NCBI GenBank assembly: GCA_016280975.1
Contig: JAEEHU010000103.1
Span: 1-40,667 of the forward strand
DNA: 40,667 bases
Source of the DNA: Acholeplasmatales bacterium
Lineage (GTDB): Bacteria; Bacillota_I; Bacilli_A; Acholeplasmatales; Anaeroplasmataceae
Direction: 5' to 3'
In this document: positions 2,646 to 34,525 of the stretch, piece by piece
Layout: each line of letters begins with the position of its first letter
Position numbering within the stretch: position 1 is the first letter of the stretch
Notes under the pieces: generated by a model
The model's input: only the letters and a program-made list of their open reading frames with translations
Database searches by the model: none
What the model was told of the DNA's origin: nothing
Program-made: the position numbers and the translations under genes

Positions 2646-3893
2646 ATGCTATACGATCGAATTTTAGTAAGATTTGGTGATTTAACCCTAAAGGGTAAAA
2701 ATCAAAAGATGTTTTTAAAAAGCCTATATCATTTAGTTGATTTAAAAATGAAGGGCTTAAATGTATTAATTGAATATCAACATGACCGTATTTTTATCCA
2801 TCTAAATGAAGAGGATAAGGATAAGGTTATTGAAAGATTAAATCTAGTATCAGGTATATCAAGCTATTCTCTTGTAGTTAAGTGCTCAACTGATATTAAT
2901 GATATTAAGGAAACATCTTTAAAGCTAATGAAGGATGTAGTTAAAAATGAATTAACTACATTTAAATGTAATACAAAAAGAGCAGATAAGGATTATCCTA
3001 TTGCATCCTTAGATGTTACTAAAAAGGTATCTGGCTATGTACTTTCAAATCATAAGCTTTTAAAGGTTGATGTACATGACCCTGAAGTAGAGCTTAATAT
3101 TGAAATAAGAAAAGATGGTTGTTATTTATATAACCAAAACTTTGAAGCATTAGGAGGCTACCCTGTAGGTGTTGCAGGAAAGGGACTATTGATGCTTTCA
3201 GGTGGAATTGATTCACCTGTTGCGGGAATTCTAGCTATGAAGCAGGGTGTGGAGGTTGAGTGTATTCATTTTGAATCAACACCACTTACATCTATTGAAT
3301 CAGCTCAAAAGGTAGTTGATCTTGCTAAGAAAATGGCTAGATATTCAAAGGATGATAGAATTAATTTACATATGGTTCCATTTAAGGAAATCCATATGGC
3401 AATTTTAGATAATATTCCTGAATCATATACAATTACTATTATGAGAAGAATGATGTATAGAATAGCATCAGGCTTAGCTTTAAAGAAGAATTGTATTTGC
3501 TTAATAAATGGAGAATCAGTTGGTCAGGTTGCAAGCCAAACATTACAATCTATGAGTGTAATAAATAGTGTAACAAATATGCCAGTTATTCGTCCACTTG
3601 CAATATTTGATAAGAAGGATATTATTAAGCTTTCAACAAAGTTTGATTGTTATGATTTATCAATTAAGCCATTTGAGGATTGCTGTACAGTATATATACC
3701 AAAGACTCCTTCAACTGCGCCTAAAATTGATAAGGCAGAAACCTTTGAGAAGGCATTTGATTATGAGAGTATGGTTAGGGAAGCTATAGAAAATACAAGA
3801 AGTATATCTATTGATAAGGATTCAGATTTAGATTTACCACTTTTAGGACTTGAAGTAAGAGACGTTTTAGATGAGATTTTAGCAAAAAAATAA
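2646..3893 (+). CDS. thiI: tRNA 4-thiouridine synthase ThiI
   Basis: MLYDRILVRFGDLTLKGKNQ N-terminus, THUMP region, PP-loop LLMLSGGIDSPVAG. Start set at ATG 2646 behind GGAGG (2636), not at 2598 as in the ORF track. Confidence 0.93.
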   Translation: MLYDRILVRFGDLTLKGKNQKMFLKSLYHLVDLKMKGLNVLIEYQHDRIFIHLNEEDKDKVIERLNLVSGISSYSLVVKCSTDINDIKETSLKLMKDVVKNELTTFKCNTKRADKDYPIASLDVTKKVSGYVLSNHKLLKVDVHDPEVELNIEIRKDGCYLYNQNFEALGGYPVGVAGKGLLMLSGGIDSPVAGILAMKQGVEVECIHFESTPLTSIESAQKVVDLAKKMARYSKDDRINLHMVPFKEIHMAILDNIPESYTITIMRRMMYRIASGLALKKNCICLINGESVGQVASQTLQSMSVINSVTNMPVIRPLAIFDKKDIIKLSTKFDCYDLSIKPFEDCCTVYIPKTPSTAPKIDKAETFEKAFDYESMVREAIENTRSISIDKDSDLDLPLLGLEVRDVLDEILAKK

Positions 3894-3942
3894 TTACATT
3901 TGTAAAAAATGTAATATAATAAAAACTAGGAGTTGGTTATTT

Positions 3943-4728
3943 TTGAAATTATATATAAAGGCACCTTTATACAAAAGGTTTTTAGCTTTTTTAATTGATG
4001 GAGTTATAGTTGTTGGCTTAAGTATCTTGATTGGATTTTTAATTTTATGGGCAATGAAATTTGATTTCCAAAGATACGGCACTTTATCTGATAAAGTATA
4101 TAAAACATATTATGATTTTATGATCACTGGAAATGGTGCATTATTAGATGATACATTCTACAAGGACGCGACTGAATTCTTTAGACTTGGTTTAGTAAGA
4201 CTTGGAATAATATACGCTGTTGCGATAGTATTAACTATTCCGTATCTAGTAGTACTACCTTATTTTTGGAAGGGTAGAACATTAGGAAGATTTGCGATGA
4301 GATTAACTATTATTTCTCATATTCCTAATACTAGCTTGAAATTACACCATATTGTAAGAAGAGAAATACTAGGTTCATATTTACTACTTGGTGTTTTATC
4401 ATATATAATCGCGCTTCCATCATTGTTTATACTTTTATTTATTGGAAGAAGTATTACAGACTTAGTATCATCTACAGACTTAGTTTTAGAAGATCCTGTT
4501 ATAGTTGATGAAAATACACAAGGCTTCTATAATTTCTTTAATAATAGAATGAGAGAAAATAACTATTATCAAGGAAATGATAATGATAAGTATGATGATA
4601 ATAATAATGATGTAATTGACGCGGAAGTTAACGACGTTAAGGATGAAAATAATAATCTTAATGATAATAAGATAGATGATAAAAAGAATGAATCTTTTGA
4701 TGATGATGACGAATATGAAGTATTTTAG
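3943..4728 (+). CDS. RDD-family membrane protein with Asn/Asp-rich C-terminal tail
   Basis: YKRFLAFLIDGVIVVGL at the N-terminus, hydrophobic segments; tail NDNDKYDDNNNDVIDAEVND...DDDDEYEVF. TTG start behind AGGAG. Confidence 0.75.
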   Translation: MKLYIKAPLYKRFLAFLIDGVIVVGLSILIGFLILWAMKFDFQRYGTLSDKVYKTYYDFMITGNGALLDDTFYKDATEFFRLGLVRLGIIYAVAIVLTIPYLVVLPYFWKGRTLGRFAMRLTIISHIPNTSLKLHHIVRREILGSYLLLGVLSYIIALPSLFILLFIGRSITDLVSSTDLVLEDPVIVDENTQGFYNFFNNRMRENNYYQGNDNDKYDDNNNDVIDAEVNDVKDENNNLNDNKIDDKKNESFDDDDEYEVF

Positions 4729-5374: not shown

Positions 5375-6535
5375 ATGGCAACATTAGATTTAAAAAATAT
5401 TAATAAAATCTACCCTAACGGAGTACAAGCCGTTTTTGATTTTAACCTACACATTGACGAAAAGGAATTCATTATTTTCGTAGGACCATCTGGTTGTGGT
5501 AAATCAACAACTTTACGTATGATAGCAGGTCTTGAAGAGATTTCTTCAGGTGACTTATATATTGATGATGTACGTATGAATGACGTAAGCCCTAAGGATC
5601 GTGGTATCGCAATGGTTTTCCAAAGCTATGCCTTATATCCACATATGTCAGTTTATAACAACATGGCATTCAGCTTACAATTACGTCGTATGCCACGTGA
5701 TCAAATCGCAAAGAGAGTAGATGAAGCAGCTAAGATGCTTGGTCTAGAACCATTCTTACAAAGATTCCCAAGACAATTATCTGGTGGTCAATGTCAAAGA
5801 GTTGCATTAGGACGTGCAATCGTTCAACAAGCAGGAGTATTCCTACTAGACGAACCACTTTCTAACCTAGATGCTAAGCTACGTGTAACAATGCGTGGAG
5901 AATTAACTAAGCTTCATAGAAGATTAGGTTGTACAACTATTTACGTAACACACGACCAAATTGAAGCCATGACAATGGCATCAAGAATCGTAGTTATGCG
6001 TGATGGTCGTATTCAACAAGTTGGTGCACCAAAAGATATTTATGAGAACCCAGCTAACGTATTCGTTGGTGGATTCATCGGTACACCTCCAATGAACTTC
6101 CTACATGGTGAATTAAAGGATAATGGTACATTCGTATCATCTAAGGGTAACTATACAATTAAGATTCCTGAAGGAAAATTAAGAGTACCAAGAGAAAAGG
6201 GTTATGAAAATAGAGAAATCATTTTCGGTATTCGTCCTGAGGATATTTATGATGAGCAAAATGAAATTATGAAGACAGTTTGGGCAAATGCTTGCTTAGA
6301 CATTACTGTTGAAATTTCAGAATTACTAGGTGCTGAAACTAACATTTATACTTCAGTAGATGGTGATCCAATCATTGCTTCAGTTCCATCAAGAGACGAT
6401 TTAGCTCCAGGTCAACCATTAAAGTTATGGTTAGACATGAATCACTGTCATTTATTTGATGCTGATACAGAAATGTTAATCACAGAAGATTCTCAAACAA
6501 AGACAGATGATTTCGATTTAGATGACGATTTATAA
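5375..6535 (+). CDS. Sugar-type ABC transporter ATP-binding protein (UgpC/MsmX/MsmK-like)
   Basis: Walker A GPSGCGKST, Q-loop, LSGGQCQRVALGRA, LLDEPLSNLDAKLR, C-terminal TOBE-like region. Confidence 0.92.
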   Translation: MATLDLKNINKIYPNGVQAVFDFNLHIDEKEFIIFVGPSGCGKSTTLRMIAGLEEISSGDLYIDDVRMNDVSPKDRGIAMVFQSYALYPHMSVYNNMAFSLQLRRMPRDQIAKRVDEAAKMLGLEPFLQRFPRQLSGGQCQRVALGRAIVQQAGVFLLDEPLSNLDAKLRVTMRGELTKLHRRLGCTTIYVTHDQIEAMTMASRIVVMRDGRIQQVGAPKDIYENPANVFVGGFIGTPPMNFLHGELKDNGTFVSSKGNYTIKIPEGKLRVPREKGYENREIIFGIRPEDIYDEQNEIMKTVWANACLDITVEISELLGAETNIYTSVDGDPIIASVPSRDDLAPGQPLKLWLDMNHCHLFDADTEMLITEDSQTKTDDFDLDDDL

Positions 6536-6558
6536 TATTTAAAAAATCTAATAAATTG

Positions 6559-6593
6559 TGGGTCAAATTTTTGAAAATTTGACCCATTTTTTT
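6559..6593 (+). terminator. Rho-independent terminator
   Basis: TGGGTCAAATTTT-tga-AAATTTGACCCA followed by TTTTTTT. Confidence 0.88.
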
Positions 6594-6665
6594 AAAACAT
6601 ACTATAATTTTTATATATTTAATATATAATATTATTACACATTTCGGTTAAAGGCGGGTGATTTT

Positions 6666-9600
6666 ATGCTTAAGCTTAAGGATATAAAGAAGGAATATTA
6701 TGTAGCTGATACGACAGTTCATGCACTAAAGGGTATTAACCTATGCTTTAGAAAAAATGAATTCGTATCAATTCTAGGACCATCTGGTTGTGGTAAAACT
6801 ACATTATTAAATATTATTGGTGGACTTGATAAATATACAAGTGGTGACTTATATATTTCAGGTAAATCAACTAAAGAATTTAAGGATAGAGACTGGGATG
6901 TATATAGAAACCATAGAATTGGTTTCATTTTCCAAAGCTACAATTTAATTCCACATCAAACAATATTAGGAAATGTTGAGCTTGCTTTAACTATTTCAGG
7001 TATATCAAAGGCTGAAAGAACTAAAAGAGCAAAAGAGGCACTTGATAGAGTAGGTTTAAAAGATCAATATCATAAGCATGCTAATCAATTATCTGGTGGT
7101 CAATGCCAAAGAGTTGCGATAGCACGTGCTTTAGTTAATGAACCAGAAATCCTACTTGCTGATGAGCCAACTGGTGCGCTTGATACAGTTACATCAGTTC
7201 AAATAATGGATTTAATTAAAGAAATAGCTAAAGAAAGATTAGTAATCATGGTTACACATAACCCTGATTTAGCTGAAAAGTATTCTACAAGAATTGTAAA
7301 TTTACTTGATGGTACTGTTTTAGATGATTCTAATCCATTTACTGAAGAAGAAGAGCTTTCTGAACTTAATGAATTAAAGGAATTAGAAGATAAAAAAGAA
7401 AAAGAAGAAACTGAATTATTAACTCCTGAAGAGTTAAAAGAAAGAAATAAGCATAAAGAAGAAAAAGCTAAGATGAGTTTCTGGACTGCATTTAAGCTTT
7501 CATTTAAGAATCTTTATTCTAAGCTAAAAAGAACTATATTAGTTATTATTGCAGGTTCTATTGGTATTATTGGTGTATCTGCCGTTTTAGCCGTATCTCA
7601 AGGTGTAAAGGATTATATTGCAAGTATGCAGGATGACCTTTTATCAGCATATCCTATTAAGATTGCAGAAGCTGGCGTTGATTATAGTGCACTTGTAAAT
7701 TCATCTATCGCATCTAATAAGGATAAGCTTGATATTGTATCAGGAAAGGTAAATGTAAACTCATTAATTGATATTCTAGTTAGAAATGAGGACGCATTAA
7801 AGGAGCTTGCCTATACAAATACAGTCACTCAAGAATATGTAAATTATGTTAAAAACATGCCAAAGGAATATTATAACGATATTGTCCTTAATTATGGCTT
7901 AGATATTGTAAGTAGTATTTATACAGATTATAAGGTTTACCAAACTAATCAAAATGGTAAGAGAGTTGCAGATGGTACTGATGTTCCTATTACAAAGAAC
8001 ACAAGAACATTATCACTTCATGCAATAACTGAGTATTATACAGCTCTACTTGAACAAACTCCTTATGCTGAATATTCAGCACTTATTACTAACCTATCAA
8101 CAGTAATGAGTCAATCTGTATCAAATAATGAATATATTTCATCACAATACGATTTATTAACAGGTACACTTCCAAAGAATAAGGAAGATATCCTAATTGT
8201 ACTTGGACCAAATGATACATTAACTGACCTACTATTAGCACAGCTTGGCTATTATACAGAGGATGAATTCTATAATATGATTTATAATGCAGGTCCTGAT
8301 GAAATGAAGGGTGCTTATAAATCAACACTTGATGTAGAGAAATTCTCTTATGAAACATTATTAAATAAGAAATTTACTTGGTATCCAAATGATAAAATTT
8401 ATACTGATGTTAGTATGGATGTTGAATCAGGAGGAAAGACCACTCACCTACAAAGATTTGCGTATAATTACGAGGCTAATACTAAAACTGCCAAGGTAAG
8501 TAATATGGTACTTGATACAATTACTGGTGGTATGGGTATTAACTATGATATTAATTTAGAGTATGTAAATGATGACTGGAGTAGTAAGGGTCTAGATTTA
8601 AATGTTTGTGGTATCGTAAGAGCTAAAGAAGGAATTCAATATGGTGCTTTATCTTCTGGATTCTTATATACTGAGGCTTTAGCTAAATATATCGTTAGCC
8701 AAAATATAAATTCTGAAATCGCAAGAAGTATTAAGGCTAATGGCGATATCATGTCAATGACTATGGAACAAAGTGGTTTAACACTTCCAATTGGTATTTT
8801 CTATAAACTTGGCTATCTATACGATCAAAAGCTAAAGAGCGAGGATTATGAGGAAGGCTCAAAGAATGTACTTGTTGGTAAGGCTCAAACTGGTATTATG
8901 ACAACATTCTTAAGCTACGTTGGCGGCGCTGGCGGTAGTATGGGAATGGGTGGAGGTAGTGGTGATTCTAACGTAAGTGAAGAATTAAAATCATACCTTA
9001 ATATTAAGACTATGGATTTAAATGGTATAGGTGGAACATATTTACCTGAATCTATTGAAATTTATCCAGTTGATTTTAATAACAAATTCCTAGTTACAGA
9101 TTATCTTGATGTATGGAATAATACTAAGGCTAGACCAATGGTTTATACTTATAACGCTGATGGTACTGAAGAAACTGGTACTTATAATGCTAAGGATTTA
9201 AGTAAGGCAGTTGTTAAGAATAGCGAGGGCGAAACAGTAGCTTGTGATATTATCTTGACATATTATCAAAAGGCATCTGGCAAGAACTACATTGTATATA
9301 AATTAAAAGATAGTGATGTTGGATTAATAAGCACTTATTCTTATGATGAAAATACTGATACAGTAACTTTAGCATCAAATATCAGTCTTTTAGGCGACGT
9401 TACAGTTAAGAATAATGGTGGTACTGTCATAGATTGTGATATTGAATATATTTATCATTCACCTGAAGGTAAAAAATATGTCGTATACACAAATAAAGAT
9501 AACAAGCAAAGATATTTAGAAGAATATGAATTTGATGCAAATGATAGCACTGTAATTGTAGTAACTGAGGCTACAGATCAAGATGAAGCGAATTTATTAA

Positions 9601-33030: not shown

Positions 33031-33121
33031 GGAGTAATACTCAAGAGGCTCAAGAGGCTTCCCTGCTAAGGAAGTAGACCGGGTAACTGGTGCGAGGGTT
33101 CGAATCCCTCTTGCTCCGCCA
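33031..33121 (+). tRNA. tRNA-Ser (anticodon GCU), CCA encoded
   Basis: Acceptor GGAGTAA/TTGCTCC, anticodon arm CTTCC-CTGCTAA-GGAAG, long variable arm ACCGG-GTAA-CTGGT, T-arm GAGGG-TTCGAAT-CCCTC, discriminator G + CCA. Confidence 0.95.
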
Positions 33122-33134
33122 ACTTAAAAATGAC

Positions 33135-33164
33135 AAGGTATCTTAATTGATACCTTTTTATTTT
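33135..33164 (+). terminator. Terminator after tRNA-Ser
   Basis: AAGGTATC-ttaatt-GATACCTT followed by a T-rich run. Confidence 0.8.
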
Positions 33165-33266: not shown

Positions 33267-33671
33267 ATTATACTCGACAAAAAACCCACACTATTGTATA
33301 GTATAGTCGACAGAAATATAAAAAGTGCTTTTAGTGAAAAGAACTTATATCCAGAAGAATTAGAAAAACGTCTAGCTTCAGTTGAAGGAAGATTCGGTGA
33401 TCTTTTGAATAATAAGTTATTAAAGGAGCAAGAAAAGATTATATTACATCGAGATGAAATCTGGCTTATAAAGAAATTTTTAGTACTCGAAATGTTTAGA
33501 GTTCTAGATGCATTGAATGAAAACAGAACTGTTAAAGATAGTCCAGAATTTTCCTCAATGACATATGGATTTACCGAAAAGAAAATCGAAGGTGAGTCGT
33601 ATAGGGATTACGTATTTAGAACTATGAATGTAATAATAGATTTCTTTTCTCGGCATACAGTACTGGTGTAA
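33267..33671 (+). pseudogene. Truncated DUF4238-like gene
   Basis: Frame opens right after TAG at 33264 with no good start or SD (track uses TTG 33294). ILDKKPTLLYSIVDRNIKSAFSEKNLY...LASVEGRFGDLLNNKL...RDEIWLIKKFLVLEMFR resembles the interior of DUF4238 proteins; N- and C-terminal parts missing. Confidence 0.5.
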
Positions 33672-33741: not shown

Positions 33742-34344
33742 ATGAAAAAAATCATTTCAATCATTTTATTTTCAATCTCAATATTAATGTTGAGCGCATG
33801 TTCAAACACAGGCACTCAAAAGCAACAAAATCCAACAAATAATGCTTCTAACAATAATAATAGTTCAACTGATACTGGTAATGGTTCTTCTCAATCAAGT
33901 CAAAATACAACTACGAATACAGATGACTATTATTGGTTTAAACTATCATCTGATGGTAAATCATATTACTACTGGAAAAGAACGAATACAGAAGACCCTA
34001 ATCCAGTAATTCCCTCTACTTACGAAGGATTACCAGTTACTGGAATACTGGAACGAGCTTTTAATGGAAGTAGTATAACAAGCGTAAAATTGCCAGATAA
34101 GCTAGAAAAAATTGGTAGATATGCTTTTACAAATTGTCAGAGCCTAACAGCAATAACATTTCCCAAAACTTTAACTTTTATAGGTGATAGTGCATTTATG
34201 CAATGTTATAAACTTGCTACAGTCAGGTTTAACGGAACAATCGAGGAATGGAAAAAAGTAACAAGAGAATCTTCTTGTTGGGTTGACATAAAAACTATAG
34301 ATGTAATATGTAGTGATGGAACTACTACTTTAGTAGCTAAATAA
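33742..34344 (+). CDS. Small lipoprotein with BspA-type leucine-rich repeats (LRR_5)
   Basis: Lipoprotein signal MKKIISIILFSISILMLSAC, Asn/Ser/Thr-rich linker, LRR_5 units (ILERAFNGSSITSVKLPDKLEKIGRYAFTNCQSLTAITFPKTLTFIGDSAFMQCYKLATVRFNGTIEEWKKV). Confidence 0.85.
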   Translation: MKKIISIILFSISILMLSACSNTGTQKQQNPTNNASNNNNSSTDTGNGSSQSSQNTTTNTDDYYWFKLSSDGKSYYYWKRTNTEDPNPVIPSTYEGLPVTGILERAFNGSSITSVKLPDKLEKIGRYAFTNCQSLTAITFPKTLTFIGDSAFMQCYKLATVRFNGTIEEWKKVTRESSCWVDIKTIDVICSDGTTTLVAK

Positions 34345-34345
34345 A

Positions 34346-34417
34346 GAAGCAATACGAAAAAACTTATTATAAGGAGAAGTAACTGGTGTGAGGGTTCGAA
34401 TCCCTCTTGCTTCGCCA
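34346..34417 (+). pseudogene. tRNA-Ser-like relic: acceptor stem + T-arm + CCA, no anticodon arm
   Basis: GAAGCAA...TTGCTTC-G-CCA forms a perfect 7-bp acceptor; T-arm GAGGG-TTCGAAT-CCCTC intact; 3' 39 nt match tRNA-Ser (33083-33121) at 37/39. Confidence 0.85.
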
Positions 34418-34429
34418 CTTAAAAATTAT

Positions 34430-34452
34430 AAGGTATCTTAGGATACCTTTTA
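34430..34452 (+). terminator. Second copy of the tRNA-Ser-type terminator
   Basis: AAGGTATC-ttag-GATACCTTTT, similar in sequence and position to the copy at 33135. Confidence 0.75.
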
Positions 34453-34525
34453 TATTTTCTTTCACTAATTTAAATAATAATGTTATAATTGATATATAAT
34501 ACTTCAATTAAAAGGTGGAGATACT

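Follow-up and report, generated by a model that had tools for sequence, protein, structure and literature searches.

A probable degenerate tRNA-Ser copy at the distal edge of a decayed insertion behind tRNA-Ser(GCU) in an Acholeplasmatales bacterium

In a 40,667-nt stretch of DNA from an Acholeplasmatales bacterium (contig JAEEHU010000103.1 of assembly GCA_016280975.1; "the window"), we find that a tRNA-Ser-like element on the + strand (34346..34417), which lacks a D-arm and an anticodon arm, is probably a tRNA-Ser gene copy that has degenerated. The distal repeat of a decayed insertion of ~1.3 kb at the 3′ end of tRNA-Ser(GCU) would consist of the element's 3′ half and the terminator behind it. 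The original prediction had read the element most simply as a tRNA pseudogene; our analysis supports that reading and sharpens it by locating in the element the distal repeat of an insertion site at tRNA-Ser.

The element directly follows a BspA-type LRR lipoprotein gene (33742..34344, + strand; Pfam LRR_5), whose TAA stop codon (34342-34344) is separated by a single A from the element's 5′ acceptor strand, GAAGCAA (34346-34352). This strand forms a complete 7-bp acceptor stem with TTGCTTC (34407-34413), the T-stem GAGGG/CCCTC (34390-34394/34402-34406) closes a TTCGAAT loop, and the 3′ end consists of G73 followed by an encoded CCA (34415-34417). Coordinates, sequence, position 1 nt past the stop codon, encoded CCA and terminator copy are all as originally described. 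Programs for tRNA detection, proposed earlier as a check, gave a divided answer: the Rfam tRNA model RF00005 covers the element end to end (model positions 1-71; E-value 5e-4 in a genome search and 9e-4 in a local scan), but its 28.4 bits fall just below the gathering score of 29 bits, and ARAGORN makes no tRNA call on 34346-34417.

An intact tRNA-Ser with anticodon GCU and an encoded CCA (33031..33121, + strand; called by ARAGORN, and by RF00005 with 54 bits) marks the left boundary of the insertion. The first 10 nt of the element, GAAGCAA plus TAC (34346..34355, + strand), match this tRNA at 8 of 10 positions, differing at positions 2 and 5, and the earlier comparison with its acceptor (GGAGTAA/TTGCTCC) proved right. 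The last 38 nt are the same at 36 positions, the exceptions being position 71 and one unpaired base that precedes the T-stem. Between these ends, 42 nt of the tRNA middle are swapped for a 23-nt filler (34356..34378, + strand) standing where the D-arm, anticodon arm and 5′ side of the variable arm would be, and the features needed for decoding are missing. Similarity of the filler to the tRNA middle is not significant, its alignment scoring no better than random window DNA. The CTTA-TTA-TAAG hairpin proposed within it lies outside the minimum-free-energy fold, which holds the T-stem and six of the seven acceptor pairs; taken as a whole, the element folds with an unexceptional energy (z −1.3).

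The 3′ part of the element belongs to a direct repeat in the same orientation, identified downstream of the tRNA by blastn and a repeat search (33083-33164 versus 34379-34458; 89% identity). The first copy (33083..33164, + strand) comprises the 3′ part of tRNA-Ser and its terminator (hairpin 33135-33156 in a terminator scan). The second (34379..34458, + strand) runs from the 3′ side of the variable arm through the T-arm, 3′ acceptor strand and CCA to an intrinsic terminator hairpin (34430..34449, + strand), which has the same 8-bp stem as the tRNA's terminator and a shorter loop. The repeats flank ~1.3 kb holding the LRR lipoprotein gene and a truncated DUF4238 gene (33294..33671, + strand; Pfam PF14022), a piece of decayed cargo that spans only positions 33-122 of the 281-position profile. 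A longer DUF4238 paralogue, 422 codons and open at the contig end, lies on contig C94 of the same genome (76-414; ~63% identity to the fragment). The C-terminus of the LRR protein aligns with the ends of three homologues and is not visibly truncated. A promoter scan found no consensus + strand promoter from the start of the LRR gene to the element, so a transcript could include the element only at the tail end of the LRR mRNA; the element's one probable contribution is to supply that gene with a terminator.

We envisage that the direct repeat would have arisen beside a tRNA-Ser that was duplicated or element-borne, through site-specific insertion or tandem accretion; the 5′ acceptor strand would descend from a whole tRNA whose D/anticodon part was later lost. 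Some observations weigh against this scar reading: the ORFs of the 1.3-kb interval, namely the DUF4238 fragment and the LRR protein, include no integrase or recombinase, and the filler is not recognisably tRNA-derived. Weighing against plain decay is the intact pairing, somewhat unexpected in a copy that has lost its middle.

Among 161 genomes of the order, the element was found in this one only; a match in G138 turned out to be an intact tRNA-Ser instead. The contigs of the two nearest syntenic relatives (G024 and G010) end shortly after the tRNA, and the NCS2 permease of the right flank does not stand beside tRNA-Ser in relatives. The 3′ end of tRNA-Ser is a recurrent insertion hotspot in the genus: content downstream of the orthologous tRNA differs in each relative, variably decayed copies of TGCTCCGCCA with the tRNA terminator lie behind cargo genes in G027, G018, G009, G013 and elsewhere, and in G025, too, cargo at this tRNA is followed by tRNA 3′-end/terminator repeats. 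The unit in G013 encodes a large serine recombinase, and the reading frame of this enzyme extends into tRNA-Ser(GCU). At this recombinase locus (L042, 3445-5082 and 7527-7580), inverted arms GGTTTGGATA and TATCCAAACC flank the two junctions, suggesting that they may be attP halves. By comparison, the Islander paper of 2014 knew only tyrosine integrases to target tRNA genes (PMC4383910).

In G025, two tandem units stand behind tRNA-Ser, followed by an AbiEi/AbiEii pair (L045, 5873-10494). One unit carries a YhcG/DUF1016 nuclease, the other a Schlafen/AlbA protein, and neither a recombinase; their left end TTATAAATTCGAAATCGAAGG is identical and their right ends, CGGACAACGT..CTTGCTCCGCCA, are similar. 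These units are candidate recombinase-less defence or toxin-antitoxin cassettes. We compared loci downstream of tRNA-Ser in six further genomes (L039 in G027, L040 in G018, L041 in G009, L043 in G012, L047 in G024 and L052 in G019) and found cassette-like segments that are 92-97% identical between species whose proteins otherwise diverge. Counted from the tRNA, positions 5388-7338 of G027 correspond to 15-1956 of G012, 3710-4193 to 12-491 of G024 and 6-489 of G009, and 8210-8863 to 3-654 of G019. A segment that immediately follows the tRNA in one genome may sit further into the array in another, and one shared cassette stands behind tRNA-Ser(CGA) rather than tRNA-Ser(GCU). Breakpoints fall at the tRNA-3′/terminator repeat, and no recombinase was seen in the shared units of these six genomes. 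An integron reading of the hotspot, with attC-like folds, was set aside: its repeats correspond to tRNA 3′ ends and carry arms of the serine-recombinase type, and the loci we read showed no integron integrase. Elsewhere in the order, G078 has two dispersed copies (L191 and L194) of a 392-nt repeat, 81% identical, which may be a mobile-element end. The copies run ~7 nt beyond a 3′ end resembling that of tRNA-Ser, GGGTTCAAATCCCCTTTCCTCCACCA, and a TATAAT-like box stands immediately upstream of it.

The locus in the window has the look of a degraded relative of the genus's tRNA-Ser arrays. Its repeat extends deeper into the tRNA than the att-like ones of the relatives do, so that the action of the same enzyme can only be inferred. 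Like the tDNA-borne islands collected in Islander, it shows an intact tRNA gene, cargo and a same-strand 3′ tRNA fragment downstream, but its unit has no integrase, its 1.3 kb fall under the 2-kb Islander filter, and its fragment seems to retain the 5′ acceptor strand too (PMC4383910). The genus hotspot resembles the Dehalococcoides ssrA islands, where tandem units with strain-variable cargo lie behind an RNA gene, bounded by its 3′-end repeats, with a serine recombinase frame overlapping the boundary and some units lacking a recombinase, which were suggested to be cis-mobilizable (PMC3146451). In our case the target is tRNA-Ser, the units are much smaller, and the window unit is decayed. The Dehalococcoides tRNA-Gly-like sequence, unlike our element, is conserved and lies within a module rather than at a boundary (PMC3146451).

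We then asked where the A2-U71 pair of the acceptor stem comes from. The combination of GAAGCAA with TTGCTTCGCCA occurs at this locus only and in none of the 160 other genomes of the order. A tRNA pattern search across 85k species returned only two short Chryseobacterium genes, which ARAGORN calls tRNA-Ser, and the exact 3′ core of the element was not found in those species. On an IMG/VR contig, L149, a complete tRNA-Ser begins with GAAGCAATAC and ends with TTGCTTCGCCA, matching the first 10 nt of the element at all 10 positions. This gene (IMGVR_UViG_3300033463_005784, 746-833) receives the anticodon call ACT, odd-looking for a bacterial-type AGY-reading tRNA-Ser. Since a tRNA-Ser with exactly this acceptor exists on viral DNA, the compensatory change may have arisen elsewhere than at this locus. 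Descent from another Ser isoacceptor of the genome had been named as a possible source of the acceptor; ancestry can explain it, through the tRNA-Ser on the viral contig and not through this genome, in whose fragmented assembly tRNA-Ser(GCU) was the only Ser isoacceptor found. The change at position 5 is accounted for by a congener, G007, whose tRNA-Ser(GCU) has GGAGCAATAC. A look for similar phage records gave one weak match, and a pattern search for attP-like arms in viral contigs gave none. The best explanation of A2-U71 is either that the copy served for a time as a working tRNA or that it derives from an element-borne tRNA-Ser.

A simpler account would make the element a pure attachment-site remnant, in which only 34379-34458 is tRNA-derived, as a displaced 3′ fragment, and the complementarity of GAAGCAATAC, at the cargo's end, is due to chance. 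Similarity indeed drops sharply to the left of 34379, the other remnants in the genus consist of the 3′ part only, and a looser 5′ complement, probably a product of chance, also occurs beside the tRNA-Ser 3′ ends of G078. Chance is a strained explanation for the 5′ strand, however. GAAGCAA occurs 94 times on both strands in 1.04 Mb of loci mostly from the genus, giving a probability of ~0.004 that it falls within 41 plausible start positions; for GAAGCAATA, which adds U8-A9 to it, the probability in the same zone is ~5e-4. Among 11 control tRNA-Ser 3′-end remnants in relatives, none exceeded five of seven Watson-Crick pairs on the 5′ side. Because of the low chance of the 5′ 7-mer and its lack in the control remnants, we put the odds of a degenerate whole tRNA against a bare 3′ fragment at about 4 to 1, a preference weakened by the picking of this locus from a large scan. 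We consider the pure remnant unlikely, though it is the most serious of the competing accounts. In a simple simulation of neutral decay, all 12 pairs were kept with at least one double change in 1.5-3.5% of runs, a figure that is suggestive but weak evidence of a functional past, or of selection, as it concerns one locus chosen after the fact.

The original prediction had also raised the possibility that the LRR mRNA carries a tRNA-like 3′ end under selection; this would here be a co-opted island scar. An RNase P cut at 34345/34346 might give the mRNA a defined 3′ end and release a by-product ending in CCA, or the CCA-ended stem might act as a stabiliser or decoy. The acceptor, T-arm and GCCA are intact, the double change preserves pairing, the terminator is retained, and hairpins of an acceptor and T-arm are known RNase P substrates, with some bacterial mRNAs being cut (PMC11143913). 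The element does contain such a hairpin with RCCA, as do the model substrates and tRNA-like mRNA sites of that work, but here tRNA descent explains the hairpin and cleavage is hypothetical. The same features are expected of any recent tRNA copy, the acceptor is obtainable by ancestry, the fold energy is ordinary, and the element was found in a single genome of the 161. This proposal found no positive support, and we regard it as very improbable. A parallel for such a sequence is tRNA-Other of Bacillus cereus, likewise a non-canonical tRNA flanking a genomic island and likely transcribed only within a larger RNA (PMC3399842). That gene, however, carries a Trp anticodon, is present in other Bacilli as well and shows a phenotype when knocked out; our element has no anticodon arm and was found in no relative. 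A functional minimal tRNA-Ser without a D-arm, finally, has a precedent in animal mitochondria, from which D-arm-less tRNA-Ser is known (PMC4013460), but no arm bearing an anticodon loop of 7 nt can be drawn from the filler and an intact tRNA-Ser(GCU) stands 1.2 kb away, leaving this idea with almost no probability.

Taken as a degenerate tRNA-Ser copy, the element by itself is a scar of a common type, which illustrates how tRNA genes become duplicated and disrupted where DNA inserts. Were it under selection after all, it would represent a bacterial mRNA with a tRNA-mimic tail. More interesting than the element is what it points to: a busy tRNA-Ser hotspot at which small units of one or two genes, common to several species, lie between copies of the tRNA 3′ end, several of them carrying candidate phage-defence or toxin-antitoxin genes.
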